Of a DNA stretch of 64,000 nucleotides, positions 5,345-10,752 are shown piece after piece. The DNA comes from Gemmobacter caeni (GTDB taxonomy: Bacteria; Pseudomonadota; Alphaproteobacteria; Rhodobacterales; Rhodobacteraceae): positions 186,001-250,000 of the forward strand of contig NZ_QBKP01000001.1 in NCBI RefSeq assembly GCF_003054195.1, written 5' to 3'. The position numbers and the translations under genes were made by a program. Position 1 is the first letter of the stretch; each line of letters begins with the position of its first letter. The notes under the pieces were generated by a model. The model saw only the letters and a program-made list of their open reading frames with translations. It was not told the DNA's origin and did no database searches.

Positions 5345-5676
5345 CGCAGCACTCCACATAGGCGATCTGCGCCGGATTCGGCCGACCAAGGCCGGAAGGC
5401 GCGTCGTGTGCGCCCTCGTAACGGAAGCGTCAGGCATTGTCACTAGCCGTTGCGCCGATTTGGCGGCGGGACGGCACGCTTGTTAACGATTTGCAGGCGG
5501 CGGACAGCGGGACCACCTGATTTCCGTCCCGGACTACAAGAAATATGGCGCGCGCCCCCAAGCTCTTCTGTCTATTGTGCCGCCCTGTGCTAGACATCGG
5601 CCAAGGCTTTTCCCGCGGGCCCTGAGTTTCCTCATGCGGGATACACCAAATCACCTTTCCTCCAGCGGACCCGGAC
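5345..5676. other. Gap between divergent dksA and secreted-protein gene
   Basis: These 332 bp must hold both outward promoters. Two small stems (5379-5383 with 5090-type spacing to 5390-5394, and 5398-5402 with 5410-5414) lie just upstream of dksA and could structure its leader. I see no protein frame with a ribosome-binding site, no tRNA and no strong promoter consensus. Confidence 0.5.
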
Positions 5677-6198
5677 ATGATGCCCAAGATCCATTTCCTG
5701 TGCGCCGTGCTTGCCCTGACGGCAGCACCCGCCCTCGCCGAAACCCCCGATTATTCCGCAGGCGGCGGCAAGGTCTACGCCTCGGTCCGGGGCTGGACCG
5801 TCGTGCAAAGCGACCGCTACGGATGTTCAGCCTATCCCGAGGCCATGCCCATCGTCTTCAACACCCCGCCCGCAGGCGGCTGGCAACTGATCTTCCCCTA
5901 CAGCACTTCGGGCGGAGAAGGCACATTCGCGGGTTCCATCGACGTCGACAAGTCCAGCTTCACGGAAGAGTATTACGGCGATGGCGAGTGGATGTATTCA
6001 TCCTTCCCACTGAACATGCGCAAGGCGGCAGCCGCCGGAAGCCGTATCTATGCCAATATCGGCCCGGCGGTCGCGGATGTCGGTCTGGACGGCGCCACCG
6101 CTGCCATGCTGAAGGTCGAGGAATGCTGGCAGAACCTGACGGGGTGGAGCACCGCCACATCAAGCCGCGCCGGAACCTTCGCCCTGTCGGGCGACTGA
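5677..6198 (+). CDS. Secreted hypothetical protein
   Basis: The 173-residue protein has a clear Sec signal peptide, MMPKIHFLCAVLALTAAPALA, with cleavage after A21, so it is periplasmic or outer-surface. The mature part is rich in Gly, Tyr and Ser and has two cysteines (YGCSAYPEA and EECWQNL) that could form a disulfide. No enzymatic motif is visible and I do not recognise the family. The second Met is an equally possible start. It is 79 bp upstream of moxR in the same direction and may be cotranscribed, although the two products have no evident link. Confidence 0.75.
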   Translation: MMPKIHFLCAVLALTAAPALAETPDYSAGGGKVYASVRGWTVVQSDRYGCSAYPEAMPIVFNTPPAGGWQLIFPYSTSGGEGTFAGSIDVDKSSFTEEYYGDGEWMYSSFPLNMRKAAAAGSRIYANIGPAVADVGLDGATAAMLKVEECWQNLTGWSTATSSRAGTFALSGD

Positions 6199-6277
6199 AC
6201 TGCCGCCCCTGCCCTTGCCCTCGTCGGCCCGAGGGCTTACCCCTCGGTCCGGTATCCGCTTCACGAAGGACAGTCCC

Positions 6278-7117
6278 ATGCGTTTCGACGGCACCGCCGA
6301 TTATGTCGCGCCCCCCGATCTGGTCGTCGCGGTCAATGCGGCGGTGGCGCTGCAACGCCCGCTGCTGGTGAAGGGCGAGCCCGGAACCGGCAAGACCGAA
6401 CTGGCGCGGCAGGCGGCCACTGCGCTGGGTCTGCCCTTCATGGAATGGAACATCAAGTCCACCACCAAGGCGCAGCAGGGGCTTTACGAATACGATGCCG
6501 TCTCGCGCCTGCGCGACAGCCAGCTTGGGGACGAGCGCGTCCATGACGTGAAGAACTATATCCGCAAGGGCAAGCTCTGGCAGGCGTTCGAGGCCGGAGG
6601 GCGCGTGGTTCTGCTGATCGACGAGATCGACAAGGCCGACATCGAATTTCCGAATGATCTGCTGCAAGAGCTCGACCGGATGGAGTTCCACGTCTACGAG
6701 ACGGGCGAGACGATCCGCGCGCAGCATCGCCCCGTGGTCATCATCACCTCGAACAATGAAAAGGAACTGCCCGACGCGTTTCTGCGCCGCTGTTTCTTCC
6801 ACTACATCCGCTTCCCCGAAATCGACACCTTGCGCGCCATCGTCAACGTGCATTTCCCCGGCATCAAGGAGGCACTGCTGACCACCGCGCTGACGCAGTT
6901 CTACGAAATCCGCGAAACGCCGGGACTGAAGAAAAAACCTTCCACCTCGGAAGTGCTGGACTGGCTGAAGCTCCTGCTGGCCGAGGATCTGGGCCCCGAG
7001 GATCTGAAGCGCGACGGGCGCAACCTGCTGCCGCGCCTGCATGGGGCACTGCTGAAGAACGAACAGGACGTTCATCTTTTCGAAAGACTCGCCTTTATGG
7101 CGAGGGGGCGAGGCTGA
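6278..7117 (+). CDS. MoxR-family AAA+ ATPase
   Basis: A 279-residue MoxR-type chaperone ATPase. Walker A is GEPGTGKTE (residues 33-41), Walker B is LLIDEIDKAD (about 112-121), and sensor 1 is in IITSNNEKELPD (about 155) followed by the arginine finger region FLRRC. MoxR ATPases normally remodel or load metal centres together with a von Willebrand partner. The matching CoxE-type protein is encoded at 9571-10752, separated by the candidate RNA, a DUF2927 lipoprotein gene and a 54-residue membrane protein gene. The ATG at 6278 follows GAAGGA; the frame is open from 6215 but the upstream residues do not belong to the family. The target enzyme is unknown. Confidence 0.9.
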   Translation: MRFDGTADYVAPPDLVVAVNAAVALQRPLLVKGEPGTGKTELARQAATALGLPFMEWNIKSTTKAQQGLYEYDAVSRLRDSQLGDERVHDVKNYIRKGKLWQAFEAGGRVVLLIDEIDKADIEFPNDLLQELDRMEFHVYETGETIRAQHRPVVIITSNNEKELPDAFLRRCFFHYIRFPEIDTLRAIVNVHFPGIKEALLTTALTQFYEIRETPGLKKKPSTSEVLDWLKLLLAEDLGPEDLKRDGRNLLPRLHGALLKNEQDVHLFERLAFMARGRG

Positions 7118-7130
7118 TCCGCGACAAAAA

Positions 7131-7166
7131 TGCGGGGCCTGTGGATAGTTTCAACAACGCCCCGCA
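7131..7166 (+). terminator. Hairpin after moxR
   Basis: An 8-bp perfect stem (TGCGGGGC at 7131-7138, GCCCCGCA at 7159-7166) with a 20-base loop lies 14 bp after the moxR stop. There is no T-tract, so it may be a 3'-end stabiliser rather than an intrinsic terminator. The loop contains TGTGGATAG, one base from a DnaA box. Confidence 0.4.
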
Positions 7167-7212
7167 AACCCTTGCCCAACCGCAAGAATCAGCGCCATAG
7201 ATTCGCCGTTTC

Positions 7213-7347
7213 CGCCACAATCACGCCACAATTAAGCCAATTTCACCCCACTAGCGCCACAATTAAAGAAACATTCTGAAATATTACGTGATAACCGCAT
7301 CGCAAATCTGGCGCGCGGTCCTCACGCGACCGCGATGGATTGTGGCG
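7213..7347 (+). promoter_or_regulatory. Four copies of a CGCCACAAT box upstream of the candidate RNA
   Basis: The nonamer CGCCACAAT occurs at 7213-7221, 7224-7232 and 7255-7263 in the same direction and once inverted (ATTGTGGCG) at 7339-7347. Two of the copies continue as CACAATTAA. All lie in the AT-richer stretch before the TTGACA element at 7384. Repeated boxes at this density suggest binding sites for a regulator that I cannot name. Confidence 0.5.
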
Positions 7348-7383
7348 CGCCCTAATGCCGTCACGCCCCAGGATTTCCCGAGA

Positions 7384-7412
7384 TTGACATAAATCGGCCC
7401 CGGTGCAGACAC
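7384..7412 (+). promoter_or_regulatory. Candidate promoter of the structured RNA / DUF2927 transcript
   Basis: A perfect -35 element TTGACA (7384-7389) is followed after 17 bp by a poor -10 (AGACAC, 7407-7412). A start near 7418 would put the first base at the beginning of a perfect 9-bp hairpin, an arrangement seen in stable RNAs. The weak -10 is the main doubt. Confidence 0.45.
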
Positions 7413-7417
7413 TCTGC

Positions 7418-7893
7418 TCACGTTCTCTGACTGCAATGAAGAACGTGACAACAACAAGCACAGGTCGAGCGGAGACATGACCCCTGTAACGTGCAGCCCG
7501 CTGCGCCAGCCGATGGCGTATGCGCAAAATTCCGGCCCCGCTGCTGCGGCGGCGCCGGTGGGCTGTGCCGTGACACGGGTTCCGGTTCTGCAAACGTCCT
7601 GTGACACCCCGCCCCCGGCCCTGCCGGCCGGGATGCGGGTTTCGCGCCGGTCGGGGGACTGGGGCGATGCCGGACAGTCGGGCAGAAAGGCGGCGGGGGC
7701 CGCCCATCTGACCGGCAGGACGGCGAAGGGTGCCGGGGATCTGCGGTTCATCCTGTCTCGGGGGAGACAGGACGCAGGCTCCGGTTTCCGGGGGACCGGC
7801 CGGGCTGGCGATGCGGGGGCATCGTCACAGGGTCAGGCACGGCCCCGCACAACCGGGGCCATGATCCGGCGCATCTGTCTGCTCCGCCGGATC
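7418..7893 (+). ncRNA. Candidate structured RNA: array of perfect hairpins with GGGG loops
   Basis: This stretch holds about ten clean inverted repeats in a row. A 9-bp stem opens it (7418-7426/7440-7448). Others are 7614-7620/7626-7632 (7 bp), 7647-7652/7657-7662 (6 bp, one GU), 7689-7694/7699-7704 (6 bp), 7712-7717/7731-7736 (6 bp), 7751-7759/7764-7772 (9 bp, with an outer CTGCG/CGCAG clamp), 7781-7785/7795-7799, 7809-7814/7819-7824 (6 bp), 7841-7847/7854-7860 (7 bp) and 7863-7871/7885-7893 (9 bp). Four of these have exactly GGGG as the loop, closed by C-G, and a fifth carries CGGGGG in its loop. A 164-codon frame (7477-7971) with a GGAG site crosses the region but looks like no protein. 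It could be a long leader of the DUF2927 gene or a free RNA; the strand is inferred from the promoter element. Confidence 0.5.
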
Positions 7894-7934
7894 GCGGTCT
7901 CATACGACCACCGCACTCACGGGGCTGCCAACCC

Positions 7935-9329
7935 ATGCGTATCACCGCCGTACTCGCGCTCGCCGCACTGACCGCCTGCGCCCAGACACCCGATTCCGGC
8001 TATCGTGCCGAGGTCTCGATGAACCGGCTGGTCGAACAGCCGGGTTCATCCGTCACCAGCGCGGTCAACCTGTTTTCGGGCCAGACCCCGCAGCGTGTCA
8101 GCCGCTCGAACGCGGAAATCGCGCAGGATTTCCTTGATCTCGAATTCCGCATGGAAAGCGGGCGCGCACTGCCGGTTCTGACCCGGTTCGAGGGCGGCCC
8201 GATCACCGTCGCCCTGACCGGACAGGTGCCACCCACAGCCGAGGCCGATCTGGCGCGGCTGATCTCGCGCTTCCGCAACGAGGCCGGGCTGGATGTGCGG
8301 CGCGCCAGCGGACCGGCGAATATCAACGTGGTCTTCGTGCCGCGCAAGACCATCCGCGCGACCTTCAGCAATGTTGCCTGTTTCGTTGCACCCCGCGTTG
8401 CATCTTGGGAAGAATACAAGGCTGCGCGCGGCACTGGCACGCTGGACTGGACAACGCTGCGTCAACGCGAGCGGCTGGCGATCTTTGCCCCGGCGGATTC
8501 CACCCCGCAAGAGGTGCGGGATTGCCTGCACGAGGAAATCGCACAGGCCATGGGGCCGCTGAACGACCTGTACCAACTGCCGGACAGCGTGTTCAACGAC
8601 GACAATTTCCACACCGTCCTGACCAGCTTCGACATGCTGATGCTGCGCGTCCACTATGCGCCGGAACTGCGCAGCGGCATGACACGCGAGCAGGTGGCGG
8701 CAGTACTGCCCGGCCTGCTGGCGCGGCTGAACCCCACCGGCGCCACCGGCCGCACCCATCAGGGGGGCCAGACGCCACGGGCCTGGATCCGCGCCATGGA
8801 AACCGCGCTTGGACCGCGTGGCAGCGTCTCTGCCCGCAATGCCGCCGCACATGAGGCGCTGGCCATTGCCCATGCGCAGGGCTGGCAGGCGAGCCGTCTG
8901 GCTTTCTCCTGGTTCGCTGTCGGGCGTCTCAATGTCAGCAACGATCCGGTGGCTGCGGCCAATGCATTCGCCAATGCAGAACGTATCTACCGCCGCCTGC
9001 CGGGCGCGCAGATCCAGGCCGCGCATGTCGACATGCAGCTTGCCGCCCTGGCGCTGAGCCAGGCCAACCCGGCTCAGGCCATAGCCTTTGCAGACCGCGC
9101 GATCCCGGTGGCGCGTCAGGCGCAGAACGCCTCGCTTCTGGCGACCGTGATGCTGGTCAAGGCGCAGGCGCTGGAGGCGCAGGGCAACGTGGCGGCGGCG
9201 CGGGCGCTGCGGCTCGACAGTCAGGGCTGGGCACGGTATGGCTTCGGCTCGGATGCGGCGACGCGGGCCCGGATGCGTGACATCGCATCGCTGGTGCCCT
9301 CGAAACTGCGGCAGTTGTTCAGGGGCTGA
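7935..9329 (+). CDS. DUF2927 lipoprotein
   Basis: A 464-residue predicted lipoprotein: MRITAVLALAALTAC is a short signal peptide with lipobox LTAC and the lipidated Cys at 15. The central region (about residues 60-260) fits DUF2927, with PANINVVFVP, NVACFVAP and DCLHEEIAQAMGPLNDLYQLPDSVF; the HEE followed by a conserved NDLY is suggestive of a metalloprotease-like site but is not proven. The C-terminal 150 residues are alanine-rich helical repeats resembling TPR. In Rhodobacteraceae this gene sits with MoxR and CoxE-type genes, as here. The predicted place of action is the periplasmic face of a membrane. Confidence 0.82.
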   Translation: MRITAVLALAALTACAQTPDSGYRAEVSMNRLVEQPGSSVTSAVNLFSGQTPQRVSRSNAEIAQDFLDLEFRMESGRALPVLTRFEGGPITVALTGQVPPTAEADLARLISRFRNEAGLDVRRASGPANINVVFVPRKTIRATFSNVACFVAPRVASWEEYKAARGTGTLDWTTLRQRERLAIFAPADSTPQEVRDCLHEEIAQAMGPLNDLYQLPDSVFNDDNFHTVLTSFDMLMLRVHYAPELRSGMTREQVAAVLPGLLARLNPTGATGRTHQGGQTPRAWIRAMETALGPRGSVSARNAAAHEALAIAHAQGWQASRLAFSWFAVGRLNVSNDPVAAANAFANAERIYRRLPGAQIQAAHVDMQLAALALSQANPAQAIAFADRAIPVARQAQNASLLATVMLVKAQALEAQGNVAAARALRLDSQGWARYGFGSDAATRARMRDIASLVPSKLRQLFRG

Positions 9330-9401
9330 GGGGCCGCGCGCCCCCTGCCCGTCCGCGATGGCGCCCCGGCGCCGCGCGGCAGCAGCAGGAGAGGCTGAGG
9401 C

Positions 9402-9566
9402 ATGATCGTCATTACCGCCGCGATATTCGGGGCGCTTCTGGGTGCAGGACGCGCCCGCGCCCATGGCGGGCGGCTGGCCGACATGCTGCAATGGGGCGGC
9501 AGCTTCGCCATCCTGTTCGCGGTTGTCGGCATGATCGTTACCATCATCATCGAAAGGTCGATCTGA
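9402..9566 (+). CDS. 54-residue membrane protein
   Basis: A short frame beginning MIVITAAIFGALLGAG behind GGAGAGGCTGAGG. Two hydrophobic segments (about residues 1-16 and 33-51) flank a basic loop RARAHGGRLADM, and the protein ends IIIERSI. The gene lies 72 bp after the DUF2927 stop and only 4 bp before the CoxE-type start, so it is surely in the same transcript. Its size and position suggest a membrane anchor or assembly factor for the MoxR/CoxE module. It is below the usual gene-calling length and easily missed. Confidence 0.75.
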   Translation: MIVITAAIFGALLGAGRARAHGGRLADMLQWGGSFAILFAVVGMIVTIIIERSI

Positions 9567-9570
9567 GCCG

Positions 9571-10752
9571 ATGTTCCTGCCGTTCTTTGAAACCCTCCGC
9601 CGCACCGGCGTTCCGGTCTCGCTGCGCGAGTATCTTGGGTTTCTGGAAGGCATGGCCGCAGGGCTCGCCACCTATGATGCGGAGGCGTTCTACTACCTCG
9701 CCCGCACCGCCATGGTGAAGGACGAGCGCCATCTGGACCGTTTCGACCGCGCCTTCGCCGAAAGCTTCAGGGGTCTGGATGCCATCACCGCCGATCAGGT
9801 GCTGGAGGCGATCGACCTGCCAGGCGACTGGCTGGCGAAGCTGGCCGAAAAGCACCTGACGGCCGAGGAAAAAGCCCAGATCGAAGCCCTGGGTGGCTTC
9901 GACAAGCTGATGGAAACGCTGAAGAAGCGGCTGGAGGAACAGAAGGGCCGCCATCAGGGTGGCAACAAATGGGTCGGCACCGCCGGCACCTCGCCCTTCG
10001 GTGCCTATGGCTACAACCCCGAAGGCGTGCGCATCGGGCAGGATCAAAGCCGCCACCAGCGCGCCGTGAAAGTCTGGGACAAGCGCGAGTTCCGCAATCT
10101 GGACGACAAGGTGGAACTGGGCACCCGCAACATCAAGGTCGCGCTGCGCCGTCTGCGCCGCTGGGCGCGCGACGGTGCGGCGGATGAACTGGATCTGGAC
10201 GGCACCATCCGCGCCACTGCCGATCACGGCTATCTGGACGTCCAGACCCGGCCCGAACGGCGCAATGCGGTGAAGGTGCTGCTGTTTCTGGATGTCGGCG
10301 GCAGCATGGACCCATACATCCGCGTGCTGGACGAATTGTTTAGCGCCGCGAAGGCGGAATTCAAGCATCTGCGGCATTTCTACTTCCACAACTGCCTTTA
10401 CGAAGGGGTGTGGACCGACAACATCCGCCGCTGGGATCAGCAAACCCCGACATGGGAGGTGCTGCGCACCTATGGCGCCGATTACAAGGCGATCTTCGTG
10501 GGCGATGCCTCGATGTCGCCTTACGAGATCCTGCATCCCGGCGGCGCCAATGAACACTGGAACCCCGAGGCGGGTCAGGTCTGGCTGGAACGCGCCTGCG
10601 CACAATGGCCGAACCATCTGTGGATCAACCCGGTCCGCGAGGAACACTGGGGCTACACCCAATCCATCCGGCTCATCCAGGGCATCTTCGCCAATCGCAT
10701 GGTGCCGATGACGCTGGAAGGCATCTCGCGCGGGATCAAGGAACTGCGATGA
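9571..10752 (+). CDS. CoxE-type von Willebrand factor A protein
   Basis: A 393-residue protein with an N-terminal helical region and a C-terminal VWA domain of the CoxE class, the usual partner of MoxR ATPases. The metal-ion-dependent adhesion motif near residue 241 reads LDVGGSMDPYI, that is D-x-G-x-S instead of the canonical D-x-S-x-S, so one metal ligand is replaced by glycine. Other landmarks are the acidic/basic linker KKRLEEQKGRHQGG and GDASMSPYEIL. It is probably cytoplasmic and acts with the ATPase on an unidentified client. The ATGA overlap at 10749 couples it translationally to the next gene. Confidence 0.88.
   Translation: MFLPFFETLRRTGVPVSLREYLGFLEGMAAGLATYDAEAFYYLARTAMVKDERHLDRFDRAFAESFRGLDAITADQVLEAIDLPGDWLAKLAEKHLTAEEKAQIEALGGFDKLMETLKKRLEEQKGRHQGGNKWVGTAGTSPFGAYGYNPEGVRIGQDQSRHQRAVKVWDKREFRNLDDKVELGTRNIKVALRRLRRWARDGAADELDLDGTIRATADHGYLDVQTRPERRNAVKVLLFLDVGGSMDPYIRVLDELFSAAKAEFKHLRHFYFHNCLYEGVWTDNIRRWDQQTPTWEVLRTYGADYKAIFVGDASMSPYEILHPGGANEHWNPEAGQVWLERACAQWPNHLWINPVREEHWGYTQSIRLIQGIFANRMVPMTLEGISRGIKELR

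Follow-up and report, generated by a model that had tools for sequence, protein, structure and literature searches.

A conserved structured leader with repeated GGGG tetraloops upstream of a DUF2927 gene in Gemmobacter and other Rhodobacteraceae

The window analysed here is a stretch of 64,000 nucleotides from a genome of the genus Gemmobacter (G000), in which 817 bases separate two genes reading in the same direction. The upstream gene encodes an AAA+ protein that we take to be MoxR, Pfam itself giving the AAA+ families PF00004 and PF07728. The downstream gene encodes a DUF2927 protein with a lipobox-like LTAC close to its N-terminus, and farther downstream there is a CoxE-like VWA gene. As far as a paper on CoxD indicates (PMC3471820), the downstream genes are of a kind tied to the assembly of the CO dehydrogenase metal cluster. 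Regarding known RNA families, none of the Rfam 15 covariance models matched the element described below when positions 5500-10000 were searched; the best match in that region was ALIL (E 0.48, below the cut-off), within the DUF2927 gene and on the opposite strand. The features of the locus are the following:

6278-7117, forward strand: MoxR-type AAA+ gene (Pfam PF00004, PF07728)
7214-7383, forward strand: upstream region with GCCACAAT boxes and TGAAATATTACGTGAT, CAAATCTGGCG and GCGATGG blocks (by eye and from the alignment)
7384-7413, forward strand: predicted promoter TTGACA-N18-GACACT (TTGACA-N18-GACA in 15 of 15 RNA-type loci, a variant in G398)
7418-7448, forward strand: 5' hairpin TCACGTTCT...AGAACGTGA at the predicted transcript start (from the fold; identical in G001)
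7477-7971, forward strand: open frame of 164 codons with GGAG upstream of its ATG, running through the hairpins
7538-7553, forward strand: hairpin X region, CCGCTGCTGCGGCGGC (related sequences in seven Gemmobacter)
7647-7662, forward strand: hairpin D, CCGGTC-GGGG-GACTGG (seen in G000 and G001 only)
7689-7704, forward strand: hairpin A, GGCGGC-GGGG-GCCGCC (covariation in nine sequences of three genera)
7751-7772, forward strand: hairpin B, TCCTGTCTC-GGGG-GAGACAGGA (perfect 9-bp stem)
7806-7827, forward strand: hairpin C, TGGCGATGC-GGGG-GCATCGTCA, the most widely kept (covariation in 13-14 sequences)
7863-7893, forward strand: terminal hairpin GATCCGGC...GCCGGATC (from the fold)
7921-7937, forward strand: start-codon block GGGGCTGCCAACCCATG (identical in 7 of 7 Gemmobacter)
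7935-9329, forward strand: DUF2927 protein gene (Pfam PF11150, E 3.6e-49)
9571-10752, forward strand: CoxE-like VWA gene (Pfam PF05762)

The first-pass annotation of this DNA had proposed a structured RNA or leader here, with G-rich loops as its repeated feature, and both parts of the proposal held up. The segment 7400-7900 folds to -294 kcal/mol, whereas 100 dinucleotide shuffles averaged -246.2 (sd 6.8) with none as low (z -7.07), and a separate folding run of the predicted transcript with 60 shuffles gave z -4.42; the covarying stems described below point the same way. Four perfect stems closed on GGGG are present as had been claimed, two of 6 bp at 7647 and 7689 and two of 9 bp at 7751 and 7806, and the recurring CGGGGG can be read at all five of its positions (7652, 7694, 7759, 7789 and 7814), the one at 7789 being without a perfect GGGG-closed stem of 6. 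Four GGGG hairpins with a stem of at least 6 compare with a mean of 0.06 in 2000 shuffles, where no shuffle reached four. Furthermore, when G-T pairs and loops of 4 or 5 were allowed, only two sites on the forward strand and four on the reverse strand reached 6 pairs in the rest of the 64 kb.

The hairpins are not equally shared among the relatives. The 5' hairpin has a similar stem in G002, and around the terminal hairpin a stem is present by eye in many relatives with a different sequence. The motif of hairpin B, TCTC(C/T)GGGGGAG or TTTCGGGGGAG, occurs in 5 of 7 Gemmobacter elements and in none of the eight other elements. We dropped a G-quadruplex reading, as the GGGG stems go down to one in several genera. 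The stretch GGGGCTGCCAACCC was also considered as a small hairpin, and it makes few pairs at best and is unsupported by eye across genera.

Upstream of the first stem, TTGACA stands perfect at 7384-7389, so that a transcript would begin at about 7418, as had been proposed. The -10 hexamer (GACACT) is recognisable solely through conservation, and a sigma-70 scan found no promoter-like site here. TTGACA-N18-GACA is common to 15 of the 16 element loci (G398 has TTGACT instead), but a relaxed version of the same pattern had served to anchor these loci, and both the promoter and the CTGCCA end entered into our assignment of loci to the RNA type, so that the presence of both is partly by definition. 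At the level of sequence, a promoter belonging to the structured RNA or leader itself is supported. Farther upstream, the GCCACAAT boxes lie at 7214, 7225 and 7256 in G000, with one more inverted at 7339, and by eye many of the 20 aligned loci carry similar blocks about equally far from the promoter. The block of about 170 bp before the promoter (window 7190-7383) looks conserved across genera, with the motifs GAATCGGGCGATT, TTGCCACAATC, TGAAATATTGCGTGAT, CAAATCTGGCG and GCGATGGGTAGA, and is perhaps a transcription-factor region. An upstream TGTGGATA had suggested a replication origin; this idea was rejected, there being no clear skew switch at 4-kb steps.

Regarding the distribution, a full DUF2927 match was found in 9 of the 11 genus genomes, and only a weak one in G003 and G007, both of them incomplete. 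The element precedes DUF2927 in 7 of the 9 Gemmobacter species examined, while in the other two (G006 and G010) the downstream gene is present after a short gap without it. In other genera we examined the regions upstream of 89 DUF2927 genes (29 + 20 + 40), which are the best-matching loci from 120 and 394 family genomes. The element is also present in nine other Rhodobacteraceae genera, one of them (G062) without the GGGG loop: the RNA type was seen in G333, G415, G212, G155, G401, G281 and G138, weakly in G062, and G398 was added through a covariance-model search. With an E limit of 0.001, that search matched 12 of the 394 family genomes, eight of them at the DUF2927 locus; it misses the known elements of G333 and G401 and is thus not exhaustive. 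The matches elsewhere are in G347, G153, G410 and G069, plus a second match in G281. In the window's genome, the genus model had a single match at E <= 0.1.

Several further matches were set aside. The genus-model match in G009:C7 (E 1.4e-4) shares bases with the end of an opposite-strand open frame, and among the weaker ones L179, L181 and L183 lie within open frames and L180 between two converging frames. Weak second matches in G000 (C9:41452, L002) and G001 (C53:216938, L018) were considered as paralogues and are attributed to chance, both being the same site in a bestrophin gene (assigned by Pfam for L002 and by eye for L018). When the start-codon block GGGGCTGCCAACCCATG was searched with one mismatch in the 394 family genomes, 19 matched and only two Gemmobacter did so exactly; the other matches had no GGGG array, and three of them had a single GGGG stem.

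The stems of the element vary around a constant loop. The core of hairpin C is GATGC-GGGG-GCATC, and in 14 loci 95.5% of its cells are standard pairs, 8 of 8 pairs have changed on both sides, and the covariation score is 0.571 against 0.174 (sd 0.036) for shuffled rows, slid controls reaching at most 0.174. Without G401, whose homology is doubtful, the 13 remaining sequences give 96.2% paired, two-sided changes in 5 of 8 pairs, and a score of 0.482 against 0.159 shuffled. For hairpin A (9 loci, three genera), 92.1% is paired, 5 of 7 pairs have two-sided changes, and the score is 0.690 against 0.288 shuffled. The rows of these comparisons were picked as GGGG-closed stems upstream of DUF2927, which favours the paired share and makes the location partly circular; G062 was omitted for lack of a GGGG stem and G398 was not included. 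The two-sided changes are harder to ascribe to this choice of rows than the paired percentages. Thus the covariation that had been suggested as a check on the homologous moxR-DUF2927 gaps is present in hairpins A and C, and the GGGG is kept across genera.

The loop also stands out by number. The 15 elements hold 25 GGGG hairpins with a stem of at least 6 (0 to 4 per element), against 0.70 in shuffles with a maximum of 3. Among their tetraloop hairpins with a stem of at least 7, GGGG closes 17 of 31 and no other loop occurs twice, a count that includes both of the close relatives G000 and G001. G062, without the GGGG loop, has by eye GATGC-GCGG-GCATT. Folding excess is present in 12 of 15 elements (z -2.42 to -6.14), and not in G333, G138 and G062 (z -0.59 to -0.95); the controls gave z -1.93 to 0.34 for six GNAT-slot sequences and -1.24 to 1.15 for six DUF2927-coding ones.

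One could instead read the repeats as a DNA-level element, that is, as protein-binding palindromes around a GGGG spacer, and TGC-GGGG-GCA is indeed a dyad. We give this hardly any probability: the half-sites of hairpins A, B and C differ within one genome, the stems reach 13-17 bp (allowing G-T pairs and one mismatch), and the outer pairs covary freely.

Elsewhere the slot between moxR and DUF2927 often has another content: of 88 loci in other genera, 50 have a GNAT acetyltransferase gene there (15 of 28 by motif, and 8 of 20 and 27 of 40 by a profile made for this analysis). A promoter of the same kind is followed by a GNAT gene in G419, G424 and G036, and by only a short leader in G209, G189 and G319. 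As judged from the sequences, the RNA thus occupies the place where relatives have a GNAT gene, in some genera behind the same kind of promoter, but the two have no detectable sequence relationship. Depending on the genus, the slot (L072-L160) holds a GNAT gene, holds a structured RNA or is nearly empty, sometimes with a similar promoter. The element might then be a decaying GNAT gene whose frame is kept only by translational coupling to DUF2927, and the frequency of GNAT genes in the slot, as well as the diverged GNATs under the same kind of promoter in G036 and G424, agree with it. Nevertheless, we regard this as very improbable, as none of the seven Gemmobacter elements has any similarity to GNAT (hmmsearch --max; hhalign probability 0.1%) and covarying hairpins with a single loop are not a product of decay. 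What we do see is that a structured RNA takes the place of a protein gene found in many relatives, in one genus with a frame kept open through the hairpins, and the passage from gene to RNA might be traced at this locus from one genus to the next.

That frame, 7477-7971, overlaps the DUF2927 gene by 37 nt, as the first-pass annotation had noted in saying that it invades the next gene. In 7 of 7 Gemmobacter the frame in this register, counted from the DUF2927 ATG, stays open through the hairpins, although in G002 and G005 a stop precedes the ATG and G008 lacks a clear ATG start. The other two forward frames have 0 to 5 stops in these elements. Furthermore, the X-A, A-C and C-ATG distances vary (A-C from 60 to 156), with a remainder modulo 3 that is constant in 7 of 7 Gemmobacter. 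Since the same frame is open in all seven and the spacings change in whole codons, we judge the frame to be kept in this genus, where the leader frame is probably translated, to go by the sequences. The chance of an open frame in dinucleotide shuffles was 0.13 to 0.32 for six Gemmobacter lineages. The GGGG of hairpins A, C and D falls in one codon phase and that of hairpin B in another. We also considered antisense coding and rejected it, as the reverse frames contain between 0 and 5 stops and not one of them stays open across all the Gemmobacter elements.

The encoded amino acids show little conservation. In the one species pair compared, G000 and G001, omega was 0.77 for the leader frame and 0.96 and 0.87 for the shifted frames, whereas DUF2927 gave 0.11 and the moxR piece 0.035; by halves, the leader frame gave 1.22 in the first and 0.43 in the second. 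Its dS of 0.21, against 0.52 for DUF2927, fits a constraint at the nucleotide level, but the moxR piece is low too (0.28). The GC content of the leader frame is almost flat across codon positions, and at the second position it is 0.63-0.72 in nine frames, compared with 0.37-0.52 in three neighbouring genes. The only short stretches in common, DAGAS (9 of 9 aligned frames) and GAANPC (within Gemmobacter), both derive from conserved nucleotide motifs. A Pfam search of the leader-frame protein gave no match, and AlphaFold2 with nine sequences predicted no fold (mean pLDDT 48.8, pTM 0.16). The earlier statement that the open frame reads like no protein needs amending: the amino acids are barely conserved, but the frame is kept in 7 of 7 Gemmobacter.

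In the other genera, G415, G281 and G062 have the frame open and G212 has it nearly open but without an ATG; it is broken in G155, G138, G333 and G401, where a C-like hairpin persists. As the frame is broken there, translation is not a general part of the mechanism, and as the hairpin persists in the same genomes, the RNA structure looks more widely kept than translation, which looks like a Gemmobacter feature. These observations bear on another explanation, in which a fast-evolving or new small protein took the GNAT slot and the hairpins are secondary to it. The frame open in all Gemmobacter and in G415 and G281, the whole-codon spacings in Gemmobacter, DAGAS in all nine aligned frames and the omega of the second half agree with such a protein. 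We nevertheless think it distinctly unlikely, given the omega of the whole frame and of its first half, the high second-position GC, the lack of a Pfam match or predicted fold and the broken frames beside a persisting hairpin; furthermore, stem changes that compensate each other replace amino acids, as in G212 (GAT..TC to GGT..CC).

Turning to the leader itself, the loop of hairpin C is 83-120 nt before the DUF2927 ATG in 14 loci and 91 nt in G398, although these loci were mostly found by looking upstream of DUF2927; the genome-wide model search, however, also placed its match there in 8 of the 12 matching genomes. Hairpin C is thus a structure at a near-constant distance upstream of one gene, as expected of a cis leader; the predicted transcript from promoter to ATG measures 268-532 nt. 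CTGCCA, at 7925-7930 in the window and just 5' of the DUF2927 ATG, is constant in RNA-type loci: it is at most 20 nt from the ATG in 15 of 15 of them, a count that is partly by definition, and in G398. It is absent from all six loci in which a promoter of this kind precedes a GNAT gene or a short leader, a contrast that is not by definition. Spacers just before start codons usually drift. No terminator hairpin with a U run, such as an intrinsic-terminator attenuator would need, was found in 7100-8000 of the window. The near-constant distance of hairpin C, CTGCCA at the ATG, the lack of a terminator and the single genomic match favour a cis leader.

We are highly confident that the leader is real as a conserved structured element in which a GGGG tetraloop recurs, and we found no description of it; its structure, covariation, constant loop, place by the DUF2927 start and kept Gemmobacter frame are all seen by comparing sequences. 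That it acts in cis through a partner binding the GGGG loops we consider about evenly balanced. Under this explanation, the DUF2927-CoxE genes would have a structured 5' leader of about 270-530 nt made from its own promoter, and a protein (or RNA) recognising the GGGG tetraloops would bind it and alter downstream expression in cis. In Gemmobacter, ribosomes on the leader frame would melt the hairpins, so that binding would track how well the leader is translated, and the peptide would probably be unimportant except for the residues dictated by the hairpins. We count against a cis leader that G333, G138 and G062 lack folding excess and G062 also the GGGG loop, that the GGGG hairpins go down to 0 in some elements, that G006 and G010 lack the element, that 4 of the 12 genomes matching the family model and the second G281 match are away from DUF2927, and that parts of the leader change quickly between G000 and G001. 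These two (G001 is G. lutimaris) align over 1001 bases with no gap, and their substitution differs by segment, with 31% over 7120-7372, 3.8% over 7373-7476, where the promoter and the 5' hairpin lie, 26% over 7477-7600, 12% over 7601-7700, 19% over 7701-7800 and 6.7% over 7801-7934; those counted against are the 26% and the 19%.

A further-reaching version, which we put forward as speculative and possible rather than probable, would make GGGG the recognition element of a Rhodobacteraceae RNA-binding protein and the Gemmobacter leader a translated switch, the RNA having arisen in the slot of a lost acetyltransferase under the same promoter. The frame would then be kept free of stops and frameshifts, though not for its peptide: passing ribosomes would erase the GGGG hairpins, and idle leaders would display them. 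In any case, a GGGG loop that is kept while the stems are rewritten points to a specific binder and makes a clean bait for finding it.

The leader resembles known RNAs in which hairpins repeat one loop motif. The decoy RNAs CsrB, CsrC and RsmZ are arrays of this kind, and the leader is likewise an array of hairpins with one repeated loop. However, the loops of CsrB and RsmZ are GGA, whereas those of the leader are GGGG (hairpins A and C) and do not show the GGA repeat; moreover, CsrB and RsmZ are separate sRNAs, whereas the leader stands directly before a gene and, in Gemmobacter, within a reading frame. CsrA (PF02599) was not found in the window's genome (0 of 1), and 3 of 14 control genomes were positive. 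The CcsR/cuckoo/alpha-r14 RNAs are, in the part of their description consulted, alphaproteobacterial hairpins with an invariant loop motif on highly variable stems (PMC10746234), to which the leader, with one constant loop and variable stems, is similar to that extent; they are associated with DUF1127 genes, as a partly consulted account has it (PMC10253847). Nevertheless, the leader is not a CcsR in sequence, as had been stated before: the C-rich CCUCCUCCC of those RNAs is absent from the window element, whose loop is GGGG, and CcsR lies downstream of a DUF1127 gene, whereas the leader has no such neighbour and lies between the MoxR-type AAA+ gene and DUF2927.

A CcsR-type array does occur elsewhere in the same genome. 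Nine exact CCTCCTCCC motifs (and a variant) lie in 434 bp downstream of a DUF1127 gene in G000, on the minus strand (L171, G000:C8:102800-105200), and this locus is a long CcsR/cuckoo-type array. The paired-motif pattern matches in 10 of 11 genus genomes, in nine of them 4 to 10 times, but its backward-read control also matches (up to 12 per genome), the C-rich motif being similar backwards. As G006 and G010, both without the GGGG element, are among the matching genomes, the co-occurrence of array and element is uninformative. The best duplex of the C-rich motif is with hairpin B (GGGGGAG) in G000, G002 and G005, at about -12 to -13 kcal/mol, in a calculation on five elements with no shuffled control and ignoring accessibility.

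These data bear on the idea that the leader, or a processed piece of it, is a decoy acting in trans, soaking up an RNA or a protein through its G-rich loops, the obvious RNA candidates being the C-rich CCUCCUCCC loops of the CcsR/cuckoo sRNAs. Repeated identical loops, which are typical of decoy RNAs, speak for it, as do the nine CCTCCTCCC motifs in the same genome, the 4 to 10 pattern matches in eight other genus genomes and the duplex with hairpin B in 3 of 5 elements. Still, we hold it unlikely: GGAG or GGAGG would pair better than GGGG with CUCC/CCUCC, hairpin B is restricted to five of the seven Gemmobacter elements, the C-rich array is also present in the two genomes without the element, and the narrow range of distances between the hairpin and the DUF2927 start speaks for action in cis. 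For the cis leader itself, an RNA-binding protein is the likelier partner, and the C-rich loops of a CcsR-type RNA are only possible in that role.

Other Rhodobacterales leaders offer a comparison by position. The SAM/SAH riboswitch (RF01727), uORFC-8-2 and HRC-8-4 are, as far as the relevant parts of two papers go, order-restricted structured RNAs beside particular genes (PMC2864571, PMC8632094), as the leader is, but those genes are others, and in the same parts arrays of one tetraloop are not described. In the open literature, which leaves most subscription journals outside our scope, nothing relevant was found on DUF2927, on a GGGG tetraloop or loop or on Gemmobacter small RNA, and no report of GGGG as a recognition tetraloop; a term search of large structured-RNA surveys gave no mention of moxR in the text covered.

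Finally, two similar hairpins were noticed away from this locus. G281 has a second TGCGGGGGCA hairpin, placed between two open frames but on the strand opposite to theirs and away from DUF2927 (L194, G281:C7:434373-434412), and might be a copy of the motif acting in trans, or chance. In G347, a CGATGC-GGGG-GCATCG core lies about 60 nt before the possible start codon of another gene (L188, G347:C44:43179-43218).
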